From a virus, in the IMG/VR virus record IMGVR_UViG_3300013103_000012, positions 1-51,571 of that record: a DNA stretch of 51,571 nt; one strand, written 5' to 3'. Positions 7,528-27,036 of the stretch are shown in pieces (the first letter of the stretch is position 1; each line of letters starts with the position of its first letter). Under the pieces are notes generated by a model that saw nothing but the letters and a program-made list of their open reading frames with translations, searched no databases and was not told where the DNA came from. The translations under genes and the position numbers were made by a program.

Positions 7528-8692
7528 AAAAAATGAAAAGACACTTCTTGATGATGTTATTGATCATGATTTTGATAAATACTACACAGATCTATTTAGA
7601 GAGTACTCAGGTACACTAAAGGTGGGTCACTTCCACGAAGGAAATGTACTTGCTAGAGTTCCATTACAAAGAGCCTCTACGAAGTACCTTACAAATCCTC
7701 TACACACATACTGTATAAATCCTGATCAAAATCATGAGTACTCATCAGAGTTTGGGATAGAGGGTTATAGATACTTAAGAGAGGCTATTAGAGACGGAAG
7801 AGAAGATGTAAACCTTAACGTCCACCACCTTCTTGGAGGTAATGATCTTCTTACGTCTGTTACATCTACGATTGTCAATGTTACTGTAAATGCCCCTTTC
7901 AAGGAGTGCATGGAAGTAATTGCACACTATCAAAAGCTCGCAGGTAATAACTTCTACGGAGCTCTTCTTAGAGATCCGAGTAATCCTAACTTCATTATCA
8001 ATCCACTACACATCTTAACAGCTCTGGCTATTATGGAGAATGAAGAAATTCTAAATAACAATAAGTTTAATGTTATTTTGTACTTCCATACAGACAGGGC
8101 TCAATCTGACAAAGACTTCAGTACACACTACAGTAATGAAGACCTAGTTAGAGAGAACATAGAGAAACTTATGCAACTTTACACTGCTAAAGAAGATTGG
8201 TATATTAGAGGGGAGGCACCCCTAAGAAACTATGAACATAAGAAAGTGTTCATAAAGATTTCTGAATCTGTAATAGCTGGAGAGGTTCCTAAAGACAAGT
8301 ACTACTTATCTGCCCACCAGGTAATTACTAAAGGAATTGTTGCCCCATATTACGGAAGTTCACTTATATACGTAGAAGGACGTGAGGGTTCTATAGGATA
8401 CTCATTGTCGCCTTTCAAGTCAGTTAATATTAGAGGCTGTTCTTTTATATCTAATAGAGACACAGAACTAAGTTGGTCTTCTGTATGTACAGGAGATCTT
8501 CCAAGAAATTCATTCCAAGGAATGAGAAGTCTTACACACGCTAATTTGTCATCGCCATATACTAGCTATCCGATAGTGCCTGGCGCACTAGCTTATGCTG
8601 ACGCGATGATCCACAAATGTCTAGAGTTATACACTCTGGCTAATATCCTAGGAGATACTGATGGGAAAGAAGACGACGACTGTCAGGACTAA
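7520..8692 (+). CDS. E2-like / PRTRC-B-like candidate protein
   Basis: 390 residues from the ATG at 7520, chosen because it follows GGGAGGAGACCAAA; an earlier ATG at 7493 has no such site. The C-terminal segment SSVCTGDLPRNSF, then HANLSSPYTSYPI and PGALAYADA, resembles the region around the conserved cysteine of PRTRC protein B/E2-like proteins, where the pattern is roughly VCxG..P. This is by-eye family resemblance. Placement between an E1-like enzyme and a JAMM peptidase supports a conjugation role. No other domain is recognised. Confidence 0.55.
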   Translation: MFRKNEKTLLDDVIDHDFDKYYTDLFREYSGTLKVGHFHEGNVLARVPLQRASTKYLTNPLHTYCINPDQNHEYSSEFGIEGYRYLREAIRDGREDVNLNVHHLLGGNDLLTSVTSTIVNVTVNAPFKECMEVIAHYQKLAGNNFYGALLRDPSNPNFIINPLHILTALAIMENEEILNNNKFNVILYFHTDRAQSDKDFSTHYSNEDLVRENIEKLMQLYTAKEDWYIRGEAPLRNYEHKKVFIKISESVIAGEVPKDKYYLSAHQVITKGIVAPYYGSSLIYVEGREGSIGYSLSPFKSVNIRGCSFISNRDTELSWSSVCTGDLPRNSFQGMRSLTHANLSSPYTSYPIVPGALAYADAMIHKCLELYTLANILGDTDGKEDDDCQD

Positions 8693-10286
8693 CGTCCTGA
8701 CAAAACCAAAGATAAAAGACTTCATAACTGATACTAGTCAAGGAGTAATCCTTATTGACTCAAGAGCTATGCAAGAGATCTTTGTAAAATCTGGTCCATT
8801 GGCTAAAGACAATGAGTTCCAGGTACATTACTGGTTCTTGAATTTAAGGTTCAGAGCACCTGATAATTCTATACTTGACATTGCTATTCCTACTGCGTAT
8901 TTCAATTACAAACAAGAAGTATCGAAGGCCGCAATAGGCTTTAATATGAAACAAATCGGAGAAATCTCAGACCAAATCAAACCTTTACATAATGTAAAAG
9001 TTAACCAACTACTTGAACTAGGGATCGCGGAACAGTTCGAGGCTCTTCTTGGGGTAAAATTTGAGACACAGAGTGCACAATATGGATCAATCCATAGACA
9101 CCCAGGCTCTTCTTCATACCAGTCATTCTCTACTACAGACTTGGCTTTAGAGTCTGAGGAACCTGGTGTTGTCTTCCCATTCGGAGAGGCCAAAGAGGAC
9201 AGACCTAATTTCGCAGGGATTATGGCAATTGACAATGGTCAGTGCCGAGTTGCTCACTACGAGTACAGAACTGCTAATGGTACACTAGGAACAGATATTG
9301 AATATGTACAGGCCAATTGTGCTGCTATTGTTATACAAGAGGAGGCTACACTTTCTACTGTGCAAAGGCTTTTCGGAGAGGATCCAAAAAGGTCTTATAC
9401 TACTCTAGACAACTGCAGCCAGTCAGAGGCTGTGATAGGTATTGAGAAAATAGCTCACGAGTTATTCCTAGGTGAAGGATACAGCCCCTCTACAAATATA
9501 ATCTCTGAGGATAATCTTTCACTTAAACCTGTTAAGACTTACAACTACAATACCGCTTCATATGCCTACGATAAGCCACATGTGACAATGACAAAAGACG
9601 ACTTGAATAAACTGCCGCTAGTAGAGTTAAATAATATACAGAAAAATCTTCACTTTAAAGTGAAGGCTACAAGACTGTACTCCTACACGAGGGAGAAAGA
9701 TAAGGTTGTTAAAAGTATTCTTGAAAAACAAGAAGAGTACTTAAAGACGCCTGCACTTGCGGAGACAGTACATACAAGAGGAACATTAGAAGTACTTGGA
9801 CTTGCTGCACTTCGAAAGGTGTATAGTCAGATCACTCTAAAGGTTTTTGGAAAAAAGCTTGATGCAGGTACAATGGTTTTTCAAAGTATTATTGCAGCCA
9901 TTCTAGACGCTCAGAAGTTAGATGTGACAGAACCTGCTGGAAAGTTTAATTACACTGAGGACAAGCTTCAGAAACTTGCCTTCCCCGCTGTTGTTAAGAT
10001 CTATTCAGAATTCTATGAGACTTACTATGCTGATGTGGTTCATTATGCTGTGGCTACTGTCACAGAGAATGATTTTAAAGATAAACAAGAGTGTATTGAT
10101 GAGACACTTGAGCTGCAGAACTCAATAATAATTGAACAGCAGGAGTCTGTTATGCCTTCAAAGGAAGTTATGATTGCTGAGATTGTTGCAAGATCTGGGT
10201 GTGTGGAAGACGGTCAATGGTTAGAGTATATGGAACAAGAAAACATTTACGATTGGTACTATACAGAAGAACCTTACGACGTATAA
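8661..10286 (+). CDS. JAMM/JAB-domain metallopeptidase with C-terminal extension
   Basis: 541 residues. The sequence IHRHPGSSSYQSFSTTD near residue 145 is a JAMM zinc motif (H-x-H-P ... S-x-x-D), with two more residues than usual between the second His and Ser. JAMM enzymes cleave isopeptide or C-terminal bonds of ubiquitin-like proteins. A helical region (~320-541) of unknown function follows. It overlaps the E2-like gene by 32 bases and starts after AGGAGATACTG. It could mature a modifier, remove it, or cleave another phage protein. Confidence 0.75.
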   Translation: MGKKTTTVRTNVLTKPKIKDFITDTSQGVILIDSRAMQEIFVKSGPLAKDNEFQVHYWFLNLRFRAPDNSILDIAIPTAYFNYKQEVSKAAIGFNMKQIGEISDQIKPLHNVKVNQLLELGIAEQFEALLGVKFETQSAQYGSIHRHPGSSSYQSFSTTDLALESEEPGVVFPFGEAKEDRPNFAGIMAIDNGQCRVAHYEYRTANGTLGTDIEYVQANCAAIVIQEEATLSTVQRLFGEDPKRSYTTLDNCSQSEAVIGIEKIAHELFLGEGYSPSTNIISEDNLSLKPVKTYNYNTASYAYDKPHVTMTKDDLNKLPLVELNNIQKNLHFKVKATRLYSYTREKDKVVKSILEKQEEYLKTPALAETVHTRGTLEVLGLAALRKVYSQITLKVFGKKLDAGTMVFQSIIAAILDAQKLDVTEPAGKFNYTEDKLQKLAFPAVVKIYSEFYETYYADVVHYAVATVTENDFKDKQECIDETLELQNSIIIEQQESVMPSKEVMIAEIVARSGCVEDGQWLEYMEQENIYDWYYTEEPYDV

Positions 10287-10857: not shown

Positions 10858-11449
10858 ATTGGATATAAAATTATTACACCACACACCCTTAGACTTTGTA
10901 AACTCGGGTATACGGATGTGTTGGAACTCAGAAGCTAGGTCAGATAATAATGGCCCAATAGACCAAGGTCTGAATGTCCGGATTGCCAACAAGATGAAAC
11001 ACTCTTCTGTATTAAGACATTCTTTGTATGTGTTCAGGATTACTGCCTCTACAAAGACCCTTCTTGCCTTCACAAGACATAAGGCCGGAGTTGACTTTTC
11101 TGTACAATCTACACGATATACTACATCTAAAAGAGCCGATGCTCTTACATTTACACAGACGCCTAACGAGTCTATAAATAAGTCTCTAGAGGTTATTATG
11201 GACTTGGTTCAAGGCCATATTGCTGCAGGTCATTCTGATGATGACATTGCTATGCTTCTTCCACAGGCTTATGATTACACGTGGCAGGTGTCAATGAATG
11301 CACAAGCTATTCAACACTTCCTGTCACTTCGTACTGCCCCATCTGCGCACTATGACATAAGAGCGGTTGCAAATGGTATGTACTCAGTTCTTCCTGATGA
11401 CCACAAGTACTTATTTAAGGACTCTCTACATGTTACAGACACTGATTAA
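10847..11449 (+). CDS. thyX: FAD-dependent thymidylate synthase ThyX
   Basis: 200 residues. The ThyX signature is visible as TRHKAGVDFSVQSTRYT, the RHR-type motif in the 15-residue form known in several ThyX enzymes (Lys replaces the third-position Arg). ThyX makes dTMP from dUMP using methylene-tetrahydrofolate, FAD and NADPH. Other conserved surroundings (SVLRHSLYVFRI; ALTFTQ) fit. It overlaps both neighbours. A phage NAD kinase at 16678 could help to supply NADP(H). Confidence 0.88.
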   Translation: METKLDIKLLHHTPLDFVNSGIRMCWNSEARSDNNGPIDQGLNVRIANKMKHSSVLRHSLYVFRITASTKTLLAFTRHKAGVDFSVQSTRYTTSKRADALTFTQTPNESINKSLEVIMDLVQGHIAAGHSDDDIAMLLPQAYDYTWQVSMNAQAIQHFLSLRTAPSAHYDIRAVANGMYSVLPDDHKYLFKDSLHVTDTD

Positions 11450-12452
11450 GAAGTTCGAAGAAGAGAACGACTGCAAGGTCGTATACTTGACGAAGTCAGG
11501 TTCGACCCTCTACGGAACGAACACTCCCGCTTCAGATGTGGACTATCGCGGTGTATACATTCCGAATAAAAGGGATGTACTTCTCAAGAGAGATCTGCCG
11601 TTATACTCATACTCTACAGGTGGTAAAGACTCTAAGAATACAAAAGACGATATAGATTTTCATTTGGATTCTATACACACTTGGTTCAAACTTCTTAAGA
11701 AGGGTGAGACGGGATCATTAGACTTACTATTCTCTATGTTTAGAGAGGATACGATTGTTCTACAGGACACAGTCTTTCTGAATCTTATTAAGGATAACTA
11801 CAAGTCTTTCTATGGTAAGAACTTACAGGCCTTTGTGGGCTACTGTGTTGGGCAGGCGAGACAGTCAGGGATTAAAGGTACTCGTTATGGTGAGCTTAAG
11901 AGCTTCTTGAAAGTTCTTAATTCTGATAAATATATTCAAGGTGCACTTGACCAGAGGTTGGATGCTCTATTACTTCCTTCAGATGTAAAGAAGTTCAAAT
12001 ACATTAACTTCGTTATGGCCCCTGGTCCACGTTCAAATCGCAAACAAGAAGATATACTCTACCTAGATGTTCTAGGTAAGAAGTATGCACTTCATTCGAC
12101 ATCTCTTGCTCGCCTTATTGAAAAGCTTACAGAGATGGAGGCTTCATACGGTTCAAGGGCTAAAGAGGTTACAGAAGGTATTTGTTACAAAAGTCTGGGA
12201 CATTCCTTGAGGGTCATACTCGAGGTGAAGGAACTTCTTGAGACTAACTTCATTAAGTTCCCACTCTCTCAAAGGCAGTACATTCTAGACATAAGGGCTG
12301 GAAAGGTCGATGAGACTGTGATACTGAATACGATCGAACACTTGATAGAAGAGGTTGATTCTCTATTAGAGACTACGGATATACAAGAGTCTTCGGACAC
12401 AGAGAAAGTAGATGAGATCTACTTACACTTACTTGATTTAAAGGAGAAATAA
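11430..12452 (+). CDS. RlaP-type nucleotidyltransferase (RNA repair)
   Basis: 340 residues from the ATG at 11430 (AAGGA seven bases upstream). It has a Pol-beta-type nucleotidyltransferase signature SGSTLYGTNTPASDVDYRGVY: the GS loop plus the D-x-D metal pair. This arrangement matches the RlaP/DUF4269-like 'predicted nucleotidyltransferase' family, which is often encoded beside RNA ligases in RNA repair operons. Here an RNA ligase gene follows with a one-base overlap. Likely cytoplasmic end-modification of broken RNA; substrate unknown. Confidence 0.8.
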   Translation: MLQTLIKKFEEENDCKVVYLTKSGSTLYGTNTPASDVDYRGVYIPNKRDVLLKRDLPLYSYSTGGKDSKNTKDDIDFHLDSIHTWFKLLKKGETGSLDLLFSMFREDTIVLQDTVFLNLIKDNYKSFYGKNLQAFVGYCVGQARQSGIKGTRYGELKSFLKVLNSDKYIQGALDQRLDALLLPSDVKKFKYINFVMAPGPRSNRKQEDILYLDVLGKKYALHSTSLARLIEKLTEMEASYGSRAKEVTEGICYKSLGHSLRVILEVKELLETNFIKFPLSQRQYILDIRAGKVDETVILNTIEHLIEEVDSLLETTDIQESSDTEKVDEIYLHLLDLKEK

Positions 12453-13573
12453 TGAGAAAATTGGTGACAATTAAAAAGATTGATAAATTAATTCCTATCC
12501 CTAAGAAGGATAGAATAGTTCTGGCTGTAATTGGTGGCTGGTCGGTGATTGTTAAGAAGGATGAGTTCGTTGTTAATGATCTTTGTGTATTCTTCGAGAT
12601 TGACAGTTTCTTACCTGTGGCTGATATGTATGAGTTCTTAGGTAAACCTACTACTCACCAGGATAAACTTGGACACAGATTGAGAACTATGAAGATGTCT
12701 GGGGCTGTTTCACAGGGACTGGCACTACCTTTAAATATGCTCTTCGGCAAGCCTGAAGATGTTACTGAAGGTTCAGACTGGACTGAAGAGTTTGGAGTAA
12801 TTAAATTTGATATTGATCTTACTCAACAAGGTAAGGGTGGTGGCTTGCAGGTTACTGGACAACCTAAAAGCAAATTCCCTAGTTTTTTAAGAAAGACTGA
12901 TCAAGAACGTATTCAGAACTTGCCTCATTACTTTGAGGTTCATAAGAATACATTATTTGAAGAGACACTTAAATTGGATGGATCTTCTATGACTTGTTAT
13001 AAGATTGACAACGACATTCCTTTCTGGAAAGGTTGGATCAATATGCTGGCTGTACTGGTAGGCTACAAGGATATAACAGAACCTGATGTATTTCCGTTTA
13101 ACCACTTTGGTGTGTGTTCTAGGAATCTAGAGCTTAAACGCCCTGGGTCTGAAGATAAGAAGTCTAACTTCTGGACAGCTGCCACTAATGCTGAGCTTGA
13201 AAGAGATCTGCCTACAGGTTATGCTGTACAAGGTGAAGTGCTTGCTACAAATATACAGGCTAATTATGAGAAAGTGGATTCTGTTGAATTTCACATATTC
13301 TCTGTATTCAATATTGAGACACAAGAATACTTAAATCCTACGGATGCTTCTGCATTCGTTAAGAAGTACTTACCTGACGCTACACATATTCCTATAGTGG
13401 ATACGCTGCCTATATTTGATACTTGTAAAGACTTTGATTCTTTACAAGAAAGAGTTACAGGACCTTCAATTAATTCAGATGTTAAGTCTGAAGGTAGGGT
13501 CTATAAGTCATTAGAGGGTACTATTACTTTTAAGTGCGTGTCTAATGCCTACTTGCTACAGAAAAGTAAGTAA
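12452..13573 (+). CDS. RNA ligase, Rnl5/DRB0094-like
   Basis: 373 residues. An N-terminal ~170-residue OB-like domain precedes the ligase core, as in the Deinococcus DRB0094 (Rnl5) type. Motif I is TLKLDGSSMTCYK with the lysine that becomes adenylylated; motif III is FGVCSRNLELK; a GEV segment fits motif IIIa/IV; motif V is likely LEGTITFKC near the end. It would seal nicks in RNA using ATP. It is coupled to the RlaP gene and close to a CCA-adding enzyme, so tRNA repair or tRNA splicing is the natural inference. Confidence 0.85.
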   Translation: MRKLVTIKKIDKLIPIPKKDRIVLAVIGGWSVIVKKDEFVVNDLCVFFEIDSFLPVADMYEFLGKPTTHQDKLGHRLRTMKMSGAVSQGLALPLNMLFGKPEDVTEGSDWTEEFGVIKFDIDLTQQGKGGGLQVTGQPKSKFPSFLRKTDQERIQNLPHYFEVHKNTLFEETLKLDGSSMTCYKIDNDIPFWKGWINMLAVLVGYKDITEPDVFPFNHFGVCSRNLELKRPGSEDKKSNFWTAATNAELERDLPTGYAVQGEVLATNIQANYEKVDSVEFHIFSVFNIETQEYLNPTDASAFVKKYLPDATHIPIVDTLPIFDTCKDFDSLQERVTGPSINSDVKSEGRVYKSLEGTITFKCVSNAYLLQKSK

Positions 13574-13591
13574 GACTTGCTTGATTTATAG

Positions 13592-13609
13592 AGCACACTT
13601 CGGTGTGCT
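13592..13609 (+). terminator. UUCG-capped hairpin, probable terminator
   Basis: AGCACAC-TTCG-GTGTGCT, seven base pairs with the same stem core and tetraloop as the hairpin at 1427. No U-tract follows. It lies between the RNA ligase stop and the next ribosome-binding site. Confidence 0.6.
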
Positions 13610-13636
13610 GAACTAAGTTAAATAAAAGGATACACA

Positions 13637-13813
13637 ATGAACATTCTAGACTACGACGATTGGTGTGAGCAGACAGGTTACGAACTCTTCCAAGAGGTCG
13701 ACTACTCATACTCAAAGACAAATATTCACACACACTTGCAAGAGGCTTACGAGTCATATGTTGCAGATATGACTGACAAGATTCATAAAGACATAAAGGC
13801 TGACAGATGTTAA
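13637..13813 (+). CDS. 58-residue hypothetical protein
   Basis: The ATG follows AAAAGGATACACA and the stop overlaps the start of the phosphoesterase gene. The acidic product begins MNILDYDDWCEQTGYELF and has a helical C-terminus. Coding is supported by a good ribosome-binding site and coupling. No function recognised. Confidence 0.65.
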   Translation: MNILDYDDWCEQTGYELFQEVDYSYSKTNIHTHLQEAYESYVADMTDKIHKDIKADRC

Positions 13814-14460
13814 AGGTGGTATGTGTGAGTGACACTCATGAGCTACATGCGCAGTTAGATCTTACGATCTATCCAGATTGTGATATATTACTACATGCTG
13901 GGGATTTCTCCGGTACAGGGACTAAAACTGAGACTATTAAATTCTTTGAGTGGTTTAATAGACAACCATTCAAGCATAAGATATTTATAAATGGGAATCA
14001 TGATTGGCTCGGAGAGAGAGACCCCGAAGCATTCGCTAACTTAGTAGCTAACTATCCTGACATTACACACCTACAAGGTACTGGTATAGTTGTCGAGGGT
14101 ATTAAGATACAGGGTTTTGCGGATACACCTGAGTTCTGTAACTGGGCGTTCAATCGTACACAAGAAGAACTAACTGAGATATGGAAAGGCATTGACGAAG
14201 ACACTGACGTTTTATTATGTCATGGCCCACCACACTATATATTAGATGAAGTTAACAACAACTGGTCGGCTACTTGTAATGTAGGAGACCCTGCACTAGC
14301 TTTAGCTGTATCCAAGCTTGACCTTAAAGCTTGTGTATTCGGTCACATACATACTCAAGGTGGTAAGCAAGTGGAGATAGATGGTACATTATTTGTTAAT
14401 GCTGCCGTACTTAATGACGGTTACCAATTAGCCTATGAGCCTCAGCTTATAGAGGTTTAA
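13807..14460 (+). CDS. Calcineurin-like metallophosphoesterase
   Basis: 217 residues with all the family motifs in order: VSDTHE, HAGDFSG, NGNHDW, CHGPP and GHIH. These coordinate two metals and hydrolyse phosphomono- or diesters. The short form without extra domains resembles stand-alone phage and bacterial phosphodiesterases; substrates may include 2',3'-cyclic ends or nucleotides, and the RNA-repair context makes RNA ends attractive, but this is inference. Confidence 0.88.
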   Translation: MLKVVCVSDTHELHAQLDLTIYPDCDILLHAGDFSGTGTKTETIKFFEWFNRQPFKHKIFINGNHDWLGERDPEAFANLVANYPDITHLQGTGIVVEGIKIQGFADTPEFCNWAFNRTQEELTEIWKGIDEDTDVLLCHGPPHYILDEVNNNWSATCNVGDPALALAVSKLDLKACVFGHIHTQGGKQVEIDGTLFVNAAVLNDGYQLAYEPQLIEV

Positions 14461-14469
14461 GGTTAATTA

Positions 14470-14478
14470 TGGTATACT
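14470..14478 (+). promoter_or_regulatory. Extended -10 promoter before HNH gene
   Basis: TGGTATACT, a TG-n-TATACT extended -10 element six bases before the start codon of the nuclease gene. The same TATACT motif stands before the nuclease genes at 44194 and 47333. No good -35 hexamer. Confidence 0.4.
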
Positions 14479-14483
14479 AACGT

Positions 14484-15170
14484 ATGACTAGATTAGAGAT
14501 AGAAACTGAGTTTTTTACAGTAAAAGGAACACTTAATAACCATAGAGTAAAGAAGAGTGGGCTAAGTCCCCAAACTATTTACAACATGTACTACGAAGTA
14601 GTCACTCCTAAATGCACTTGCGGACAGGAGCGTACGTTTTACACATTCCCTAAAGGCTATAGGTTAACCTGTAGCTCACGGATATGTGCAGCTAATGCCA
14701 AAGAAGGAATGCTGAAACGTAAAGCGACAAACATTGCTAAATATGGTGTAGAAGAATTTCCAACAAGTGTTAGATTCAGAGAAGCCTGCCTACAAAACTT
14801 AGGAGCTGTAAATCCTAGCTTTCTCCAGACATGTTTGGATAAAGGTAGGGATACGAAGATTGCCAAAGGTAGTCAGATTCCTGATGAAGATAGGACTGAG
14901 TGGGAGCTTTATAAGAAACTAGTTTTAGCAGAGACAAGAAAGAACTGCACTAATCTGAAGAATATACACCTTAGAGGTCATATAAAAAATGACCCAGATG
15001 CATACCACCTAGACCATAAAGTGAGTGTATACTATGGATTTATTAATAACATACTCCCTACAGTAATAGGAAATACTCTTAATCTTGAGATGATACCTGC
15101 ACGTACTAACATGCAGAAACGTACTAAATGCTCTGCAACACTAGAGGACATTACAGTACAGGCCAACTAA
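14484..15170 (+). CDS. Putative HNH homing endonuclease
   Basis: 228 residues. An N-terminal zinc-ribbon-like part (CTCGQ ... CSSRIC) is followed by a basic region and a C-terminal HNH-like segment (YHLDHKVSVYYGFINNILP, then IGNTLNLEMIPARTN), the layout of free-standing phage homing nucleases. It interrupts the operon between the phosphoesterase and the next gene, has its own promoter-like TATACT and lacks a clear ribosome-binding site, all typical of mobile nuclease genes. Confidence 0.75.
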   Translation: MTRLEIETEFFTVKGTLNNHRVKKSGLSPQTIYNMYYEVVTPKCTCGQERTFYTFPKGYRLTCSSRICAANAKEGMLKRKATNIAKYGVEEFPTSVRFREACLQNLGAVNPSFLQTCLDKGRDTKIAKGSQIPDEDRTEWELYKKLVLAETRKNCTNLKNIHLRGHIKNDPDAYHLDHKVSVYYGFINNILPTVIGNTLNLEMIPARTNMQKRTKCSATLEDITVQAN

Positions 15171-15204
15171 CCCACTAATCGTTATAGAAATTTAAAGGAT
15201 GTAC

Positions 15205-15438
15205 ATGATTAAAATACACACTGCTGTTAATGGCTCTCCGAACTGTAGTGAAGAGATTTACTGGATACATCCTTCAGAGATCTTTAGAGTCTACAAGGAA
15301 GTAGGAAAACCCTACACACATAGAATACAAGTGGCAAAACATGATTATAATATATTCATTAAGATTATGACTCCTGACTTACAGGAGTATTTGGACAACT
15401 CGCACAGGAGTTACAATCCTCTTGGCATCACTTTATAA
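15205..15438 (+). CDS. Hypothetical protein
   Basis: 77 residues from the ATG at 15205; the ATG at 15199 overlaps the AAAGGA ribosome-binding site and is less likely. Small mixed alpha/beta protein without known motifs. It precedes the CCA-adding enzyme gene. Confidence 0.6.
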   Translation: MIKIHTAVNGSPNCSEEIYWIHPSEIFRVYKEVGKPYTHRIQVAKHDYNIFIKIMTPDLQEYLDNSHRSYNPLGITL

Positions 15439-15447
15439 AGGATACAC

Positions 15448-16677
15448 ATGAATACATATTTAGTTGGAGGATCAGTTCGAGACTCCTTGATAAATGACAT
15501 ACACGGGACAGACATTCAGTCTAATGACAAAGACTACTGCGTTGTAGGTTCATCGATGAATGAGATGATCTCTCTTGGATACACATTTGTAGGTAAGGAT
15601 TTCCCTGTATTTCTACACCCAGAGACAAAAGATGAATACGCTCTTGCTAGACGCGAGAGATCCACTGGTGGAGGTCATTCAGACTTCATTACTGAGTTAA
15701 GTGACGTTACACTTGACGAGGACTTGTTACGCCGGGATTTGAGTGTGAACTCAATCGCATATGACGAAGACTCTGGAGATTACATTGATCCACACGGTGG
15801 TATAGATGATATTCGTAAGAAGGTATTAAGACATACTTCAGATGCTTTCAGAGAGGACCCTGTAAGGGTACTTCGATTGGCAAGATTCAGAGCTACTCTA
15901 GGTACAGATTGGAAGATCGCCCACGCTACAAAGGCTTTATGTTACGATATGCGAGTTACTCTTACTTCACTTACTCCAGAACGAATCTGGAAAGAGGTCG
16001 AGAAGGCTTTACTTCTTCCGAACTCACGAGTATTCTTTGAGACTCTTCTTGAGTTGAATATACTTGGATACGTATTCCCTGTGCTAGAGCCTATGGTTCT
16101 ATGCAAGGAGGGTAGTAAACACCACAGAGAGTCCTCTGTATTTGAACACACTATGATGATGCTGGACGTTGTCCATGATAAGTCACTAGAAATTAAGACT
16201 GCTGTCTTATTCCACGATGTGGCTAAGCCACACTGTTACAAATACTTTGGTTCGTCTGCAGGACATGCAAGTCCTGTATACTTTGCTCCACTTCTGCCTA
16301 ACTGGCTTCCGAAGAAGTTGCTAGGTACTACGCTATTCTTAGTGGAGAATCATACGAAGATTTACAAGACACATGAGATGACTGCAAAGACTATTGCTAC
16401 ATTCCTTGCGAAGTACAAGACTTCACAAATGCTTGAGGATCAGCTTACGCTTGCACATGCGGACGATGCTGGAAGGCTTGCAGATCCTGGAGTTTCAAAA
16501 GAGATTGAGTACACTCTTATAAGAGATACTTGGACGAAGATAAAGGCTTACTCTCCTTGGGAATGGATAAAGGACGAACTTGTTCGTAATAGGACTCCGA
16601 GTGGCGAGGCTATAAGACAGAATGTACACTCTTACAATATACAAGTTGTGAAAGAGATATTCAAAAAGGATAAATAG
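15448..16677 (+). CDS. cca: CCA-adding tRNA nucleotidyltransferase (class II, with HD domain)
   Basis: 409 residues, close in order and length to E. coli Cca. It starts NTYLVGGSVRDSL, has DFPVFLHPETKDEYALARRER, the RRDLSVNSIA motif and EDPVRVLRLARF, then an HD phosphohydrolase domain (VFEHTMMM..., LFHDVAKP). It adds or repairs the 3' CCA of tRNAs; the HD domain in E. coli gives phosphatase and phosphodiesterase activity. Several phage tRNAs here lack an encoded CCA, so the enzyme is directly useful. With RNA ligase and RlaP it forms an RNA-repair set. Confidence 0.92.
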   Translation: MNTYLVGGSVRDSLINDIHGTDIQSNDKDYCVVGSSMNEMISLGYTFVGKDFPVFLHPETKDEYALARRERSTGGGHSDFITELSDVTLDEDLLRRDLSVNSIAYDEDSGDYIDPHGGIDDIRKKVLRHTSDAFREDPVRVLRLARFRATLGTDWKIAHATKALCYDMRVTLTSLTPERIWKEVEKALLLPNSRVFFETLLELNILGYVFPVLEPMVLCKEGSKHHRESSVFEHTMMMLDVVHDKSLEIKTAVLFHDVAKPHCYKYFGSSAGHASPVYFAPLLPNWLPKKLLGTTLFLVENHTKIYKTHEMTAKTIATFLAKYKTSQMLEDQLTLAHADDAGRLADPGVSKEIEYTLIRDTWTKIKAYSPWEWIKDELVRNRTPSGEAIRQNVHSYNIQVVKEIFKKDK

Positions 16678-17382
16678 ATGAAATTACTTTACACAGATGC
16701 TTACGATTTTAGAAAGACAATTCACGAGGATACAGACGCGATTTATGTCAAAGGGGGCGATGGGACGTTACTAACGGCAATTAATAAGTTCGCACACCTA
16801 GGCCTTCCGTTCTTTGGAATTGCTGGAGGTACGTTGAATTTCCTTATGAATAATAGGGTTGGACCTGTTGATGGAGGGATTCTTCCAGATGCTACACACT
16901 TCGAAGTACAGACTATGGATATTAATGTCACGTCCAATAGACAAGATATAGGAGGTGGGAACTTCGTTAGTCTTGTCTCTACATACAATGCTTTCAATGA
17001 CATTGTCCTCGGGAACTTTAATGTATTCACAGAGTTTACATGTACACACGAGGATGACCAATTAGGTACGTTCAAAGGCTGTGGTGTGGTAGTTTCTACT
17101 GCACAAGGGTCTACAGGAATAAATAGGAATAATAATGGGACAATACTTCCCCTATCTTCTCCGAACTGGTCAGTGACCGGTATGCAGACGAATAGGACAG
17201 TGAATTCTGTTATTGCTCCTACGGAACTTGTTATAGATTGCAAAGGTCGAAAGACCACAAGGATTGGTATAGACGGTTCGAATCACGAACTAGACGATGT
17301 GTCCTCTATAAAGATCACTCCGGGTAAACCCGTTACGATCATAATTAATGACGTAGATGGATTCAATAAGAGGAGACAATGA
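16678..17382 (+). CDS. nadK: NAD kinase
   Basis: 234 residues. The GGDGTLL motif and AGGTLNFL (GT-N-F type) are the NAD kinase signatures, followed by GSTGINRNNNGTILP. It phosphorylates NAD to NADP with ATP. At 234 residues it is shorter than most bacterial enzymes (~290). It lies in the same operon direction as the NMN adenylyltransferase and NAMPT genes, so the phage could run nicotinamide to NADP by itself. Confidence 0.88.
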   Translation: MKLLYTDAYDFRKTIHEDTDAIYVKGGDGTLLTAINKFAHLGLPFFGIAGGTLNFLMNNRVGPVDGGILPDATHFEVQTMDINVTSNRQDIGGGNFVSLVSTYNAFNDIVLGNFNVFTEFTCTHEDDQLGTFKGCGVVVSTAQGSTGINRNNNGTILPLSSPNWSVTGMQTNRTVNSVIAPTELVIDCKGRKTTRIGIDGSNHELDDVSSIKITPGKPVTIIINDVDGFNKRRQ

Positions 17383-17663
17383 GAATTTACAGAGCCATGT
17401 GTAAGGAAGAGATGCTACATACAGTAAAGTATAAGCGCCCTTATTTCCGTACAAGGTTTAAATGGTTCTCTCATAATCTTGATTGGATCCATTCAAAAGT
17501 CTGTGGAGGAGAGTTCAATAATTCTCAATACATGCCACTACGTTACGAGTTCATACTTGAGTTTGAGTGGGACGAGACAAGGCACGACTTTAAAAGTACT
17601 AATGAGATACAGTTCAATATTAGAAAGAACCCTAAGATACACTTCATAGGTGTTGTAAGGTAG
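17379..17663 (+). CDS. Hypothetical basic protein
   Basis: 94 residues, overlapping the NAD kinase stop by four bases with a GAGGAGACA ribosome-binding site. Rich in aromatic and basic residues (FRTRFKWFSHNLDW). No known motif. Confidence 0.65.
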   Translation: MRIYRAMCKEEMLHTVKYKRPYFRTRFKWFSHNLDWIHSKVCGGEFNNSQYMPLRYEFILEFEWDETRHDFKSTNEIQFNIRKNPKIHFIGVVR

Positions 17664-17676
17664 AAGGAGACAATAG

Positions 17677-17898
17677 ATGGGACGATTAGGTGGAGTTAAT
17701 TTAGACGACGACTGGGGCAATGCTCCTATAAGCTATGAAGAAGATTCCCTATTAGAGAGATGTAGAAGATCTGCTGCTGAAAGAACTCCTGAGAAAAGGG
17801 CACAACTGTTAGTTGATGCTAAGATACTTACTGAAGAGGGCCACTACAATCCATTCTACTTTAGGGACGAGACTGTTGCTAAGTCTAAAAGGAGGTAA
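17677..17898 (+). CDS. Hypothetical protein
   Basis: 73-residue charged protein after AGAAGGAGACA. N-terminal MGRLGGVNLDDDWG, C-terminal basic tail KSKRR. Function not recognised. Confidence 0.6.
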   Translation: MGRLGGVNLDDDWGNAPISYEEDSLLERCRRSAAERTPEKRAQLLVDAKILTEEGHYNPFYFRDETVAKSKRR

Positions 17899-17901
17899 TA
17901 G

Positions 17902-18276
17902 ATGCTACTATTTATATACGGTACACTTAAGAAGGGTATGAGCAATCACTCCGTTCTTGAGAGAACAGATGCTGAGTTTTATTTAGAGGTACAGACATTC
18001 ATGGAATATCCTATGTATGCTTCTGGACAGAACTTTCCATACTTACAAGATACACCTGGTATAGGTCACAAGATTAAGGGCGAACTCTGGGTGGTTCCAG
18101 AGAAGGATATACGAATGTTAGACTCTTTCGAGGGAGTGCCTGACTTGTACACTAGAGGTGTCATTGCTGTTACAGATGGCAGGATTGTCACGTCGGTTGA
18201 GGGCTATTTCGTGGCTAATGAACTTACAAGAGAGGACCTGTTAAAGGTTACTCTACTTACAAATTGGGAGGAATAG
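17902..18276 (+). CDS. Gamma-glutamylcyclotransferase-like (AIG2-like) protein
   Basis: 124 residues. The N-terminal FIYGTLKKGMSNH and the later LDSFEGVPDLYTR, with the conserved Glu, match the GGCT/AIG2-like fold that releases 5-oxoproline from gamma-glutamyl amines or peptides. Stand-alone phage members exist. The real substrate in infection is unknown. Confidence 0.82.
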   Translation: MLLFIYGTLKKGMSNHSVLERTDAEFYLEVQTFMEYPMYASGQNFPYLQDTPGIGHKIKGELWVVPEKDIRMLDSFEGVPDLYTRGVIAVTDGRIVTSVEGYFVANELTREDLLKVTLLTNWEE

Positions 18277-18471
18277 ATGACACGAGAAAAGGCCTTAAAT
18301 AATATAGTGGTTAAAAACCATCCCCGCTATAGCTTAATACTCCAACAGTTGGTAAACAATATATTCGACCACTTCAAACCATTAGAGAAAGAACTAGCTG
18401 AGCACAGAGAAATGATTACTTGGATGGAAGATAATTCGAACCAGAGTCTCTGTGACTACTACAATAGATAA
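18277..18471 (+). CDS. Hypothetical protein
   Basis: 64 residues starting right after the upstream stop, with GGGAGGAA as ribosome-binding site. Helical and charged; no recognised domain. Confidence 0.6.
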   Translation: MTREKALNNIVVKNHPRYSLILQQLVNNIFDHFKPLEKELAEHREMITWMEDNSNQSLCDYYNR

Positions 18472-18481
18472 AGGATAATAG

Positions 18482-18859
18482 ATGATTTCATTCACTACAT
18501 TCGCAGTCATTATGATTGCACACTTCGTTGCTGACTTTGTTATGCAGACGGATAAGATGGCTAAGGGCAAGAGTACGGGTTTCTATTGGCTTTCACAGCA
18601 CATACTTGCTTACACGCTATGGCTTGGTAGTGGGGTAGGTTACTATTACGTAATAGTCGTTTCTCCAGACCCTTATATGATTACAGGATGGATAATTCTT
18701 AATGGACTACTCCACGGATTTGTAGACTATTTCACATCGAGATGGACATCTCGTCTATGGGAAGAAGGACGAACTCACGACTTCTTTGTTGTTATTGGAT
18801 TGGATCAGACCATTCATATACTCACACTTATAGGGACTTACATCCTGATATTTAATTAA
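18482..18859 (+). CDS. Membrane protein, DUF3307-like
   Basis: 125 residues with three to four hydrophobic segments. The pattern AHFVADFVMQTDKMAKGKS, a HxxAY helix and GLLHGFVDYFTSR fits the DUF3307 family of small integral membrane proteins, which occur in phages and bacteria. Function unknown; inner membrane location expected. Confidence 0.75.
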   Translation: MISFTTFAVIMIAHFVADFVMQTDKMAKGKSTGFYWLSQHILAYTLWLGSGVGYYYVIVVSPDPYMITGWIILNGLLHGFVDYFTSRWTSRLWEEGRTHDFFVVIGLDQTIHILTLIGTYILIFN

Positions 18860-18869
18860 AGGACATAAA

Positions 18870-19052
18870 ATGATTACACCACTACTTTATATATTATCTA
18901 TTTGTATATTTGTATTAGCACTATTTCTAAACTTTGGAGGACAGATAGATTCTACTACACATTTTCAAATGAATGTATATGGTTGGCTTGTTATAATTAC
19001 TGCAATAGGCCATGAAATACTGGACAAGTTAAATGAAACCTCTAGGACGTAA
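18870..19052 (+). CDS. Small two-helix membrane protein
   Basis: 60 residues with two hydrophobic helices (about residues 3-22 and 36-49). It overlaps the NMN adenylyltransferase gene by 20 bases. It has the size and topology of a holin-like or membrane-modulating peptide, but it is far from the lysozyme, so I do not name it a holin. Confidence 0.65.
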   Translation: MITPLLYILSICIFVLALFLNFGGQIDSTTHFQMNVYGWLVIITAIGHEILDKLNETSRT

Positions 19053-19722
19053 GAAACAACAAGGCGGAGACTACAAACACAAGGTCTCAGGTGCTGATAG
19101 AAGAAGAGGTTTTATAGGCTGGTGGGAAAATGTTATAGAGCCTACAAAGGCTAGAGATAAAAGAGAGTACACTAAAGAAATAGAAGGAGAGTTAATGGAA
19201 ATAGAACAAGAACAGTGGGGAGCTTTCGTAGGCCGTATGGCTCCTATACACATAGGACACACTTACACGATCGAACACATTATAGACGACGGACTTACCC
19301 CTATTGTATTTGTAGGCTCTGCCAATAAGATAGACGACAAGAACCCTTGGAAGATTCTAGATCGAATGAAGATGGTGAACATCGTCTATCCAGGTATGAC
19401 TGTACTCTCTCTTGAGGATAAGGAATGCTGGGACGAATGGTTTGAACAATTGATAGATAGTCTACAGTCGAATGTTTGTAAAGACTTGTCACAGATTACT
19501 ATATATACTCATAATAAGCCTGACGACAGATTAGACTTTACTTTCAGAGGTATAGACTACAAGAACGAACACTATTCAAAGATGTATGAGATTGCAGGTC
19601 TTAAGACGAAGGATCTTCCTGAGTCTGATATAGACTTACATGCCACAGATATTAGAAGAGATTTAGATTCAAATGAACACAATTTACACCCTGACGTATT
19701 TTCATATTTAAAAGGCTTATAG
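19033..19722 (+). CDS. Nicotinamide-nucleotide adenylyltransferase (NMNAT)
   Basis: 229 residues. The first ~55 are a charged extension; then AFVGRMAPIHIGHTYTIEH gives the nucleotidyltransferase GxxxPxHxGH motif, and HATDIRRDL near the end corresponds to the ISSTxxR motif. It would join ATP and NMN to form NAD. Similar NadM/NadR-like enzymes occur in phages beside NAMPT. Here NAMPT (22302) and NAD kinase (16678) are within 6 kb. Confidence 0.82.
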   Translation: MKPLGRKKQQGGDYKHKVSGADRRRGFIGWWENVIEPTKARDKREYTKEIEGELMEIEQEQWGAFVGRMAPIHIGHTYTIEHIIDDGLTPIVFVGSANKIDDKNPWKILDRMKMVNIVYPGMTVLSLEDKECWDEWFEQLIDSLQSNVCKDLSQITIYTHNKPDDRLDFTFRGIDYKNEHYSKMYEIAGLKTKDLPESDIDLHATDIRRDLDSNEHNLHPDVFSYLKGL

Positions 19723-19914
19723 GTGGCAGACTGTATACACAAGGACACTTGCAGGTACTGGTTTGGAAAGACCTGTTGTCACTGCGATATAAGTGATCCA
19801 GAGTTTAATCTATACTCGAAGAAAGATACTGAGGAACAAGATGCCATAAAGGCTGCTTACAAACCGAGTCACTGGGACTTAAAGTTCACGGCTGACTATG
19901 GCAGATGCTATTAA
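19723..19914 (+). CDS. Small cysteine-rich, probable zinc-binding protein
   Basis: 63 residues from a GTG start just after the upstream stop. C-x5-C and CCHC clusters (CIHKDTCRYWFGKTCCHC) suggest zinc binding. The protein at 32062 has a similar Cys spacing (CPQRDTCYRF), so the two may be related. Confidence 0.65.
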   Translation: MADCIHKDTCRYWFGKTCCHCDISDPEFNLYSKKDTEEQDAIKAAYKPSHWDLKFTADYGRCY

Positions 19915-19921
19915 AGGATAT

Positions 19922-20098
19922 ATGATGAATAGAGAATACACAGTGCCTATGACCAAAGAAGAGATAGAACAGGCTATCAAAGAAGGTAAAAAAGTAGAAA
20001 TGAATGGGACTGCCGTAAATGGTGGGTATGGGGAGACCTGGAACACCGCTAAAGACACTACATACCCACCAGAAATATACAGAATATATAATGATTAA
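19922..20098 (+). CDS. Hypothetical protein
   Basis: 58 residues from ATG 19922 (or 19925), chosen over an upstream ATG at 19898 because AAAGGATAT lies just before it. Acidic and basic helical N-terminus, then a Gly-rich part. Function unknown. Confidence 0.6.
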   Translation: MMNREYTVPMTKEEIEQAIKEGKKVEMNGTAVNGGYGETWNTAKDTTYPPEIYRIYND

Positions 20099-20112
20099 AT
20101 AAAGGACACACA

Positions 20113-20694
20113 ATGTTAGACACGATTTACATACACTCGACAACAAAAGTTGACGAGCCTAAGTTTATAAAGCCTCCACAATTGGTTACATTCACAAGAG
20201 GTGACAAATTAGGGACTAAACAATCCTGGGAAGTGCAGGACGATCCACACGATTCAGTTCACATTCTTGTGAACAAGACTGACACTCAAGAGATCTTACT
20301 TGTTCAACAATACAGGATTCCTACGATGATCAATTCAGAGGTTACAAAGCCTGTGACTGAATGTTGCGCTGGTCTTGTAGATTCTGATTTGCTTCCTATA
20401 CAGATTGCATATGCTGAAGTTCAAGAGGAATTAGGGTACAAGGTTAGACCTAATACGATGCAGCCAATAGGTTCTATGCTTTCTTCAGTAGGGACTGTTG
20501 GGTCTATGACTTTCCAGCTCTACTGTGAGGTTACAGAGGAGGACTTTACGGGTCAAGACCTAGGTCCGGGTGAGGATATAGAGGTTTACTCTATTCCTTA
20601 TGCTGATATAAAGGACTTCTTAGAACACACTATACATACGGATCCTGTGACGAAATACCTGTTACAGTGGTTCTTGTTGAATAAGGGGATGTAG
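20113..20694 (+). CDS. NUDIX hydrolase, NDP-sugar / ADP-ribose pyrophosphatase type
   Basis: 193 residues. The Nudix region is CCAGLVDSDLL...AEVQEELGY, in which the REUxEE core is AEVQEE and the upstream glycine-glutamate part is degenerate. The surrounding layout (LLVQQYR, CAGLVD, SVGTVGSMTFQLY) is that of NUDT14/ADP-ribose pyrophosphatase enzymes, which hydrolyse UDP-sugars or ADP-ribose. In an NAD operon, ADP-ribose released by host NAD-cleaving defences is an attractive substrate. Confidence 0.8.
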   Translation: MLDTIYIHSTTKVDEPKFIKPPQLVTFTRGDKLGTKQSWEVQDDPHDSVHILVNKTDTQEILLVQQYRIPTMINSEVTKPVTECCAGLVDSDLLPIQIAYAEVQEELGYKVRPNTMQPIGSMLSSVGTVGSMTFQLYCEVTEEDFTGQDLGPGEDIEVYSIPYADIKDFLEHTIHTDPVTKYLLQWFLLNKGM

Positions 20695-21245
20695 TGAATA
20701 AAGAACTTATACTGGACAATAAAGAATGCTTCGAACATTGGCTTGCTGGTGGTCAACTACTTTACACCTACCCTGCTATTCAGGGTTGGCAACAGTGTAA
20801 AGGAGATCATAATTGGGCTATAGGGCACAATACTTACATTATCAAGGACAGGTACGTAGAATTTCGTAAAGCCTTGGCTGAAGGGAAGACTATACAGTAT
20901 AATCCTAACACACAGATGCACAATAGATGGGATAACATAATACCAGATGAAGGCACATTTACTGAGGATACAAAGAATTACCGGATCAAACCAGACGAGC
21001 CTGAGTTCAAGGTTGGTGATCATGTGGTTATGTTACGTAATAATAATATAATGAGACTATCTGAGAAAGATATATTAGGCTTTGGTGCCTTACCTTCTAG
21101 ATTAGAAGAAATAAAACTCTGGACACCATCGCCTGGTGACTATGTATGGGCATGGGGAGATAATAAGGTTCCAAGACTTATTTTATTGTTAGAACATACC
21201 ATTAACGGGGTAGGTACACTCCCTTCAGGACTCTCAAGTGATTGA
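20694..21245 (+). CDS. Hypothetical protein
   Basis: 183 residues from a GTG that overlaps the upstream stop. The first ~100 residues contain ALAEGKTIQYNPN and NYRIKPDEPEFKVGD, a pattern common in small phage proteins. No catalytic motif recognised. Confidence 0.65.
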   Translation: MNKELILDNKECFEHWLAGGQLLYTYPAIQGWQQCKGDHNWAIGHNTYIIKDRYVEFRKALAEGKTIQYNPNTQMHNRWDNIIPDEGTFTEDTKNYRIKPDEPEFKVGDHVVMLRNNNIMRLSEKDILGFGALPSRLEEIKLWTPSPGDYVWAWGDNKVPRLILLLEHTINGVGTLPSGLSSD

Positions 21246-21402
21246 GATACTTGTGTATATTGTAGTGACTATTATTGCTGCAATATATACATTGGCAATA
21301 GTGTTATTTCCAAGAAATGAGCTGAACAAAAGAGGAAAGGTATTACTGATAGGTTTACTACTATATTGGATATTGATATTTCCAAGGATACTACACGGAT
21401 GA
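21238..21402 (+). CDS. Small two-helix membrane protein
   Basis: 54 residues from GTG 21238, overlapping the upstream gene by eight bases. Hydrophobic helices at about residues 4-24 and 34-51, separated by a basic loop (PRNELNKRGK). Function unknown. Only coding composition and topology support it. Confidence 0.5.
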   Translation: MIEILVYIVVTIIAAIYTLAIVLFPRNELNKRGKVLLIGLLLYWILIFPRILHG

Positions 21403-21568
21403 GGTAGGACCTGCCATAGACAGAGTCCTCACTGCTATACACACTGAATTAAAAGAGATACTTGGAGAGGACTTTAAGATTACGGATCCAGAAGAGGATA
21501 AGATATTTGACGTTCTTCACGAGGTATTAGAGACATACTCTCTCGGAGATTACAAGAACTACAGTTAA
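21378..21568 (+). pseudogene. Short coding stretch without a start codon
   Basis: An open frame after TGA encodes about 63 residues ending VLETYSLGDYKNYS with clear amino-acid bias (EEDKIFDVLHEVLE), but has no ATG, GTG or TTG at its beginning. It overlaps the membrane protein gene in a shifted frame. It may be reached by frameshift, use a non-standard start, or be a damaged gene. Confidence 0.4.
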
Positions 21569-21579
21569 AGGAGTCACTA

Positions 21580-21990
21580 ATGGAAATTAATGATATAGTC
21601 TACCATCCATGCAATATGGACATAATACAACACAAGATTACAGGAATACGGACTTATGAAGACCACGTTCTTTACGAGGCCAAGGCTATACACCCTGTAG
21701 GTGCTTCTGGACGTATTGAGATACTCCTTTCTGAAGATAAGAAAGGCAATATCCGGTTTACAGGTCTTATAGATGATCCTGAATATGGTAATGGCTTAGG
21801 GGACTTCGTGGAAGGACTCTACTACAAGGATCAACAAAAGGCTAGACTAGTCTACAATGAGGCTCAACGAATTCTCGTATGGTCGAATATGGAAGAGAAG
21901 AGACGATCTTATGAGAATGCTAAATTCATGTATGATAAGGTTGAGAAGATTATAAACACAATAAAGGAAGAAATAGATGATAGAGAATGA
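21580..21990 (+). CDS. Hypothetical protein
   Basis: 136 residues after AAAGGAGTCACTA. Beta-rich first part (MEINDIVYHPCNMDIIQHKITGI style), helical end. Overlaps the next gene by 14 bases. No known motif. Confidence 0.65.
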   Translation: MEINDIVYHPCNMDIIQHKITGIRTYEDHVLYEAKAIHPVGASGRIEILLSEDKKGNIRFTGLIDDPEYGNGLGDFVEGLYYKDQQKARLVYNEAQRILVWSNMEEKRRSYENAKFMYDKVEKIINTIKEEIDDRE

Positions 21991-22309
21991 TTTAAAAGAT
22001 ACTCTAGAGAAGGCTTTTGTTGCTCTAGAAGGTAATAGTAAGGAGAGTATAATAGGTTTAGAGATAGATGACTTTAATATTGAGGATGGTATATGTTATA
22101 TGGATCTAGGCTATCAGGTAGATGATAGAAAAGAAGACCAGAACTTACAGTCACAGGCTATACTAGATACCGCTAATTCGGTACTTAAAGAGGCTGGATT
22201 CAAGATAGAACAAACAAGTGAGCACGCAGAGAGAATGGATGCATATCCAAATGGATACGCCTACTATACACAATGTATAGAAGTAGAAAAGGAAGAGATA
22301 AATGACTAA
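21977..22309 (+). CDS. Hypothetical acidic protein
   Basis: 110 residues, strongly acidic, overlapping both neighbours. It precedes and is coupled to NAMPT (overlap eight bases). No known domain. Confidence 0.65.
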   Translation: MIENDLKDTLEKAFVALEGNSKESIIGLEIDDFNIEDGICYMDLGYQVDDRKEDQNLQSQAILDTANSVLKEAGFKIEQTSEHAERMDAYPNGYAYYTQCIEVEKEEIND

Positions 22310-23711
22310 TATTATAAGACTGGCTGACAGTTACAAGTACTCACACGCAGGACAATACCCGGCAATGGTGTCTATGTATGACTACATGGAGTCAAGAGGT
22401 GGTAAGTACGATTCAACGGTATTCGTTGGATTACAGTACTACTTAAAAGAGTTTATATCTAACGTGCCTACTAAAGAGGACGTTATAAAGGCTGAGAGAA
22501 AGGCCGCACTACATGGAATTCCATTCGATAGAGAAGGTTGGGATTACATAGTTGAATTAGGACATATACCTGTTACGGTTAAGGCTGTTGCAGAGGGTTC
22601 AGTAATTCCTGTTAAACACGCACTAGTTACTATTGAGTCTACAGACCCAAGAGTTCCTTGGGCTGCAGGATTCTTAGAGACATTACTTATGAAGGTTTGG
22701 TATCCAACTAATATTGCTACTAAGTCTTACCACGTTAAGAAGATGCTTGAGAACTATGGTTCACCTGAGTGGGCTATGTTTGCTTACCACAATTTTGGTG
22801 ATAGAGGTTCGAGCTCAGTAGAGTCTGCCGCTATTGGTGGATATGCTCACTTGACACAGTTTATGGGAACTGATAACTTCAATTCACTATTCTTCTGTGA
22901 AGACTACTACAATGTGCCTGAGGACCAGGTTGCTGGATACTCTGTATTCGCTACAGAACACTCAAGTGTCTGTTCTCACGGTGTAGATGGTGAAGAACAG
23001 TTTGTATATGATATGCTAATGGCAAATCCAGACGCACCTATTATGTCATTTGTGGCAGATAGTTATGATGTATATAAGTTTACAGACTTCTGTACAAATC
23101 CAGAAGGTAGAATCAGAAAGTTAATAGATTCTAGACCTCATCAGAAATTTGTATTAAGACCTGACAGTGGTGAGCCTATTGAAGTTATCTCCCAAATGGT
23201 ACAGATAATGAATAATAATAATTTATTTGTTGAGATGGGAGATACTGGTAAGTTTATTGCACCCAGCTTTGGTATTCTATGGGGTGACGGTATTACACCT
23301 GAAACTATAGAGAGTATTCTTAAGTTCTTCTGCACTGAGACTGACGTACCTATGGCTGCAGAAAACTTTGTATTTGGGTCTGGTGGTGACTTAATGCAGG
23401 CTCACGACAGAGACACACAAAGATTTGCTGTTAAATGTTCATCAATTGATGTATTTAGTCAATCTACAAGTCCAGACTTTCCAGATGAGATACACTCTAT
23501 AGATGTATTTAAAGACCCTATTACTGATCCAGGTAAGGCCTCTAAAAGAGGTAAGGTTACAACTTGGTTTGATACAGAGACAAAGGAATACATTGCAGGT
23601 CATGTAGGTAAACAACCTAATATGCACTGTGTAGATGCTTTAGTGGAAGTTTTCAAAGATGGTAAGTTATTAGTTGACTACTCTTTAGAAGAGATACGAA
23701 GTAGGTCGTAA
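22302..23711 (+). CDS. nadV: Nicotinamide phosphoribosyltransferase (NAMPT)
   Basis: 469 residues, full family length. It forms NMN from nicotinamide and PRPP. Visible residues: the N-terminal DSYKYSH, TEHS (Glu and catalytic His), FVADSYDVYKF, VLRPDSGEP (Arg that contacts the phosphate) and GDGI. Phages such as KVP40 carry nadV-type genes. With the NMN adenylyltransferase at 19033 this is the two-step nicotinamide-to-NAD route known as NARP2, which counters NAD-depleting defence. Confidence 0.95.
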   Translation: MTNIIRLADSYKYSHAGQYPAMVSMYDYMESRGGKYDSTVFVGLQYYLKEFISNVPTKEDVIKAERKAALHGIPFDREGWDYIVELGHIPVTVKAVAEGSVIPVKHALVTIESTDPRVPWAAGFLETLLMKVWYPTNIATKSYHVKKMLENYGSPEWAMFAYHNFGDRGSSSVESAAIGGYAHLTQFMGTDNFNSLFFCEDYYNVPEDQVAGYSVFATEHSSVCSHGVDGEEQFVYDMLMANPDAPIMSFVADSYDVYKFTDFCTNPEGRIRKLIDSRPHQKFVLRPDSGEPIEVISQMVQIMNNNNLFVEMGDTGKFIAPSFGILWGDGITPETIESILKFFCTETDVPMAAENFVFGSGGDLMQAHDRDTQRFAVKCSSIDVFSQSTSPDFPDEIHSIDVFKDPITDPGKASKRGKVTTWFDTETKEYIAGHVGKQPNMHCVDALVEVFKDGKLLVDYSLEEIRSRS

Positions 23712-26589: not shown

Positions 26590-27036
26590 ATGACACACGA
26601 ACAAGAGCTTATACACTGGAAGAATATGGTCAAACTTTACAAGTTCGATTATCTTACAGGTATGAAACAACGAAGAGACTTCGAGGTCGAGACTATGCAC
26701 AAGCTTACAAACCAGAAGTTCTGGTTGGCTATGTTTGATGTGACAGGCTTGCACAAGGTGAATAGAGACAAAGGATTCGCTGCAGGCGATGCCTTGATCA
26801 AACAGGTTGCTACAGAGATCCAAGGAATGGCCACACTATGGGAAGTCTACAGGATAGGTGGTGATGAGTTCATGGCTCTATTCTTTGAAGAGCCTGATGT
26901 GGACTCAATTCCGAATGCTACAGGCTGTTCTATGCACAGTAACAACTTCAAAAGCTTCGGAGATTTACTTGACAGTGTGGACAGATGTGTCATTGATAAG
27001 AAGAAGTCTCTAGGTAATAGGAGAGAGGATGATTAG
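26590..27036 (+). CDS. Minimal GGDEF-domain protein (diguanylate-cyclase-like)
   Basis: 148 residues. DYLTGMKQRRDFE, the substrate-site pattern DVTGLHKVNRDKGFAAGDAL and the signature RIGGDEF are all present, so the active site looks intact. The domain stands alone without sensor or receiver domains and its C-terminus is shorter than the usual ~170 residues. It could make cyclic di-GMP or a related nucleotide in the infected cell. No inhibitory-site RxxD is seen. GGDEF genes are unusual in phages. Confidence 0.88.
   Translation: MTHEQELIHWKNMVKLYKFDYLTGMKQRRDFEVETMHKLTNQKFWLAMFDVTGLHKVNRDKGFAAGDALIKQVATEIQGMATLWEVYRIGGDEFMALFFEEPDVDSIPNATGCSMHSNNFKSFGDLLDSVDRCVIDKKKSLGNRREDD

Follow-up and report, generated by a model that had tools for sequence, protein, structure and literature searches.

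Phages that rebuild nicotinamide adenine dinucleotide (NAD) have been reported to counter defenses that deplete it, either by NARP1 (PMC12774641) or by NARP2 (PMC12028318). NARP2 consists of nicotinamide phosphoribosyltransferase (NAMPT, or NadV) and nicotinamide mononucleotide (NMN) adenylyltransferase (NMNAT), and NadM of the KVP40 type fuses NMNAT to a NUDIX domain (PMC9503650). Phage NAD rebuilding has so far been described only as far as NAD. Here, we analyzed a 51,571-base linear virus record, IMG/VR IMGVR_UViG_3300013103_000012 (the window), which is a fragment from an uncultivated virus and carries phage-type replication genes for a DNA polymerase, a primase, a Dda-like helicase, an exonuclease, a single-stranded DNA-binding protein, and ThyX. 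Between positions 16678 and 23711, the window encodes NAMPT, NMNAT, and a NUDIX hydrolase together with an NAD kinase (NADK). We conclude that the locus likely specifies a phage NAD-to-NADP salvage pathway, in which one step is added to a NARP2-type route, and we put the probability of that reading at roughly 0.7.

The extension depends on the NAD kinase, a protein of 234 amino acids encoded on the plus strand at 16678 to 17382. Its ATG directly follows the stop codon of a gene for CCA tRNA nucleotidyltransferase and is preceded by AAGGA. The protein scored 26.5 bits against Pfam NAD_kinase (cutoff, 25.5) and 8e-17 against NCBIfam PRK04761, and it contains the motifs GGDGT, AFND, and STAQGSTGIN. 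An AlphaFold model (pLDDT, 87.8) superposed on the T. maritima NAD kinase 1yt5 with a Z score of 20.6 and a deviation of 2.7 Å over 214 residues, and all structures listed for the model were NAD(H) kinases or NAD-kinase-like. The GGDGT and NE/D motifs and the NAD kinase fold place the window protein in the NAD kinase family. Within the BFVD viral structure library, no match to the model was found at an E value of ≤0.001.

One family motif is altered. The NAD-site motif GST[AG]Y, which is usual in NAD kinases rather than a strict definer, reads GSTGI in the window protein, and its tyrosine is absent from all 15 virus NADKs that we compared (the window and 14 others), where isoleucine, phenylalanine, or alanine takes its place. 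The tyrosine is present in 42 of 44 cellular NADKs. A glutamine precedes GST in 15/15 virus proteins, which is weaker evidence on its own because the search pattern partly favored that residue. Moreover, the N-terminal stretch before GGDGT is shortened in most virus members. Loss of the tyrosine, the short N terminus, and a long branch to the cellular enzymes might be expected of an NADK-like protein that is catalytically dead or that acts on something else, such as a nucleotide signal or an ADP-ribose derivative. GGDGT and (A/V)FN(E/D) are nevertheless kept in every one of the 15, the chain superposes on NAD kinases over its entire length, and the fusion to and overlap with NMNAT described below point to NAD as the substrate. 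We consider a dead or redirected enzyme improbable.

The window NADK belongs to a clade that appears to be specific to viruses. Neither the window NADK nor the window NUDIX hydrolase, used alone to scan IMG/VR, returned any relatives, and relatives were instead obtained from a NAMPT scan followed by alignment and profile scans of IMG/VR. In the resulting phylogeny, a quick tree with long branches in which we place moderate trust, a supported branch (SH-aLRT, 98) separated the 15 virus NADKs from 34 cellular or host-type enzymes. The window protein is 31 to 45% identical to the other virus members, and when 84,980 prokaryotic genomes were scanned, identity to it was at most 33% among the matches listed. 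The clade sits in viruses, because the terminase large subunit is encoded in 5 of the 14 other records (G004, G019, G029, G035, and G038). An additional NADK, in G044 (L090), was not counted: it is of the bacterial type and lies at the edge of a prophage, beside a pyrE-like gene.

Virus NADKs are found almost exclusively where NAMPT is found. A scan of IMG/VR with the NAMPT alignment gave 37 records, and NADK was present in 8 of the 36 other NAMPT-bearing IMG/VR records (G002 was left out). The reverse scan, with the NADK alignment, gave 15 records, 13 of which contained NAMPT sequence. With G044 excluded, the 14 virus records with NADK comprised 12 with a full NAMPT, 1 with a remnant (G041), and 1 without NAMPT (G038), the last being a 17-kb fragment. 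NAMPT had already led to eight of the 14; of the six reached from NADK alone, four carry a full NAMPT and one carries the remnant. In the NAMPT tree, NADK carriers were confined to one clade (12 of 18 members; SH-aLRT, 100), the six members without NADK being incomplete records, and NADK was found in none of the 21 remaining members, KVP40 included. The remnant in G041 is a short N-terminal piece of NAMPT with about 30 matching residues (L083, 9645 to 9839), immediately upstream of an intact NADK, which suggests that NAMPT was lost and the kinase retained.

GenBank phages gave no instance of NAMPT paired with NADK. Apart from that in Sinorhizobium phage Phosso, the GenBank matches to NADK labeled as phage were host DNA or unannotated pieces, many of them short records. 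For example, MT835781 (L008) is labeled a phage and carries bacterial dxs, recN, and argR-like genes, and we rejected its NADK as a false phage match. Many other short unannotated records may resemble it.

The virus NADK is also physically linked to the NAD-rebuilding genes. Each of the 13 records with both NAMPT and NADK, the window included, encodes the two on one strand, and the spacing between them is 0 to about 7.5 kb in 12 of the 13. Excluding the window, NADK was closer to NAMPT than under random placement (combined P = 0.0012). The usual order in relatives is NAMPT, NMNAT, NADK, and the genes can be tightly packed: NMNAT shares 16 bp with NADK in L032 and is separated from it by 12 bp in L034, and NADK starts 3 bp past NAMPT in L088 (G029). 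Finally, in L086 (9461 to 10642), a single ATG-started open reading frame (ORF) of 393 amino acids encodes an NMNAT domain followed by an NADK domain, and no other single finding points as strongly to a kinase that would act on the product of the pathway. The HIGH motif of the NMNAT domain in that fusion reads TLAH. In L088 (7806 to 9997), from a 235-kb record, NAMPT is divided into two ORFs (residues 1 to 158 and 161 to 474) with an HNH-endonuclease-like ORF (8372 to 9001) between them, which suggests a homing element or an intron within the NAMPT gene.

In the window itself, the genes are spread out. All four genes named in the initial annotation are present, on the plus strand and in the order NADK, NMNAT, NUDIX, NAMPT, and about 12 small ORFs lie among them, two of which encode a GGACT-like protein and a membrane protein of the DUF3307 type, such that NADK and NAMPT are 4.9 kb apart. 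The small ORFs and the wide gap could be taken to mean that this region is simply rich in genes and that four auxiliary genes with no relation to one another came together in it by chance. That explanation is very improbable, as it is largely refuted by the recurrent same-strand linkage, the overlapping genes, and the fusion in other records.

The NAMPT and NMNAT core that the initial annotation proposed is upheld by family matches, catalytic residues, and fold. NAMPT (22302 to 23711, plus strand; 469 amino acids) scored 415 bits against PRK09198, above the equivalog cutoff of 405, and 7.5e-115 against phrog_448. Solved NAMPTs match over the whole length, and the match to the solved NAMPT-family enzyme 7yqo was 2.5e-92. 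Residues F165, R168, D191, H220, R286, and D288, which we take to be catalytic by correspondence to human NAMPT, are invariant across the aligned relatives. Namat of NARP1 is itself a NAMPT homolog and has the clamp motif GSX-phi-X-phi-X-phi-TRD (PMC12774641). We considered and dropped a NARP1 reading of the window, as its protein has GSGGDLMQAHDRD in place of the clamp motif. Judged by its sequence, the window protein is a true NAMPT and not Namat. Moreover, the 51.6-kb fragment that makes up the window record contained no PF13793 match that would indicate an Adps-like phosphoribosyl pyrophosphate (PRPP) synthetase gene.

NMNAT (19195 to 19722, plus strand; 175 amino acids) scored 23.2 bits against Pfam CTP_transf_like (cutoff, 21) and 2.5e-8 against phrog_3041. 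Its ORF is open from 19033, which had been given as the start. The start is most likely the ATG at 19195, because AAGGAG, a Shine-Dalgarno sequence, lies 5 bases upstream of it and relatives begin at the matching point. The motifs GRMAPIHIGH and ATDIRR are kept in relatives. The AlphaFold model (pLDDT, 94.6) best matched NadM 2qjo (Z score, 18.9; 1.9 Å over 154 residues), with archaeal NMNATs next (Z score, ∼17 to 18) and phosphopantetheine adenylyltransferases lower (Z score, ∼15).

The fourth gene (20113 to 20694, plus strand) encodes a stand-alone NUDIX hydrolase of 193 amino acids that resembles YffH/AdpP and is NUDT14/NudK-like. It scored 25.4 bits against Pfam NUDIX (cutoff, 21.1) and 2.8e-14 against TIGR00052 YffH/AdpP, where its 53.1 bits fall under the curated cutoff of 79.55. 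The sequence AEVQEELGY retains the catalytic E-x2-EE, with alanine in place of the usual arginine before the first glutamate. Matches in the PDB were to NUDT14 (1.9e-12) and NudK (1.1e-9), and the closest solved relatives differ in substrate, being UDP-glucose, GDP-mannose, and ADP-ribose pyrophosphatases. The enzyme probably splits ADP-ribose or another NDP-sugar. An ortholog that is 50% identical lies just downstream of NAMPT in L001 to L003, and a NUDIX match above the cutoff was found in 24 of the 37 NAMPT-bearing records. NUDIX had been counted among the features that go beyond the known systems; it does not, given its prevalence beside NAMPT and the NMNAT-NUDIX fusion of NadM (PMC9503650).

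How the four enzymes would work together can be proposed from their families. NAMPT would join PRPP to nicotinamide released by NAD cleavage and make NMN, NMNAT would combine NMN with ATP to make NAD, and NADK would phosphorylate NAD with ATP to make NADP. The NUDIX hydrolase would act on the other product of NAD cleavage, probably ADP-ribose (or another NDP-sugar), and yield AMP and ribose-5-phosphate, from which the PRPP synthetase of the host could remake PRPP. The predicted order of NAMPT, NMNAT, and NADK is well supported, both by homology and by gene linkage. We infer that each of the four enzymes is active and that the substrate of the kinase is NAD.

Several points weigh against a salvage pathway that ends in NADP. 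No NADK was detected in G003, G005, or G006, the records most closely related to the window, and all three are fragments. In G004, NADK is 98 kb from NAMPT. The replaced tyrosine and the short N terminus of the kinase clade mean that its substrate preference may differ. Finally, all of the sequences are uncultivated contigs.

Why a phage would make NADP is a separate matter. The pathway may be ordinary auxiliary metabolism that, over a long infection, supplies NAD and NADPH for nucleotide synthesis, by ThyX and by thioredoxin-dependent ribonucleotide reduction, with no role against defense. The window does encode ThyX, and thymidylate synthesis may call for NADPH, with no specific tie to the kinase. 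Moreover, NAMPT of Vibrio phage phi-St2 is transcribed almost immediately postinfection and, with NMNAT, was read as a general boost to NAD (PMC5107563). Phage NAD rebuilding has, however, been reported as counterdefense in the cases of NARP1 (PMC12774641) and NARP2 (PMC12028318), and the substrate of NAMPT is exactly what NAD-depleting defenses release. A purely metabolic role is possible but somewhat unlikely. The window fits metabolism and defense alike, and both may be true, but we tentatively favor withstanding NAD(P)-depleting defenses as the purpose, over feeding phage metabolism alone.

Whether the kinase step is itself counterdefense is a narrower proposition. Defense proteins of Argonaute systems are reported to cleave both NAD+ and NADP+ (PMC12948488), and the kinase would have a direct use because some defense proteins are said to cleave NADP too. 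The step might keep NAD safe as NADP from effectors specific to NAD, or it might refill NADP against effectors that cut both. The altered NAD-site motif and the near-exclusive company of the NADK clade with NAMPT would suit such a role, but an NADP-making step on an NAD-making pathway requires no such account, and we regard the proposition as unlikely. Framed more broadly, a virus-specific NADK may have been built into phage NAD rebuilding, once as a fusion, such that NADP is restored or NAD is sheltered as NADP during NAD(P)-depleting defense. We offer that proposal tentatively and at less than even odds.

Neighboring genes also merit mention. The NADK gene is preceded by RNA and tRNA maintenance genes (11367 to 16677) that encode an RlaP-type nucleotidyltransferase, an RNA ligase, a calcineurin phosphoesterase, and the CCA tRNA nucleotidyltransferase, and G004 likewise has a CCA enzyme close to NADK. 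Genes for tRNA-Asn and tRNA-Ser are found at 524 to 720. The GGACT (gamma-glutamylcyclotransferase-like) gene lies between NADK and NMNAT at 17902 to 18276, and its relative in G004 is 42% identical. A short GGDEF-domain protein of 148 amino acids (26590 to 27036), below the size of a full diguanylate cyclase, has a relative in G004 with 41% identity.

Four known systems come closest to the locus. NARP1 (Adps and Namat) shares the NAMPT-homologous catalytic core, whereas the window lacks the clamp motif and a detected Adps-like gene. Sinorhizobium phage Phosso, an isolated phage, has an annotated NAD kinase, an NMN transporter, and a nicotinamide-nucleotide adenylyltransferase within ∼7 kb, but its NADK falls among enzymes of alphaproteobacterial hosts outside the virus clade, and its genome gave no match to NAMPT. 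Phosso is an independent, parallel case. No paper on a phage or viral NAD kinase was found in the open-access PMC literature, and none is named in a survey of NAD systems in viruses from 2022 (PMC9503650).

The other two close systems are NARP2 and the NadV-NadM pair of KVP40 (Schizotequatrovirus). NARP2 and the window have in common the two core enzymes, a phage NAMPT with all catalytic residues and a phage NMNAT, the genes being adjacent in most relatives; the window differs in a short stand-alone NMNAT, a separate NUDIX, and an NAD kinase that would carry the product to NADP. The window NAMPT is 38% identical to NadV of KVP40, its NMNAT is related to NadM, and both systems include NUDIX. 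In KVP40, however, NMNAT and NUDIX are one protein, whereas they are separate ORFs in the window and the NUDIX is YffH/NUDT14-like; KVP40 has no NADK match, and its NAMPT falls in the NADK-free clade. NAMPT with NMNAT is NARP2, and NAMPT with NMNAT and NUDIX is the KVP40/NadM pattern, both already known. The extension by an NAD kinase, as initially proposed, holds and recurs beside NAD-rebuilding genes in other virus records, and its link to phage NAD rebuilding is apparently new, the kinase being apparently undescribed in phages. A recurrent virus-only NADK implies that some phages also need control over NADP, either to offset its loss to host defenses or to meet its use in phage DNA synthesis, and raises the question of whether defense NADases cost the phage NADP besides NAD. 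Where known systems stop at NAD, the clade offers candidate enzymes, one of them a bifunctional NMNAT-NADK that could proceed from NMN to NADP directly.

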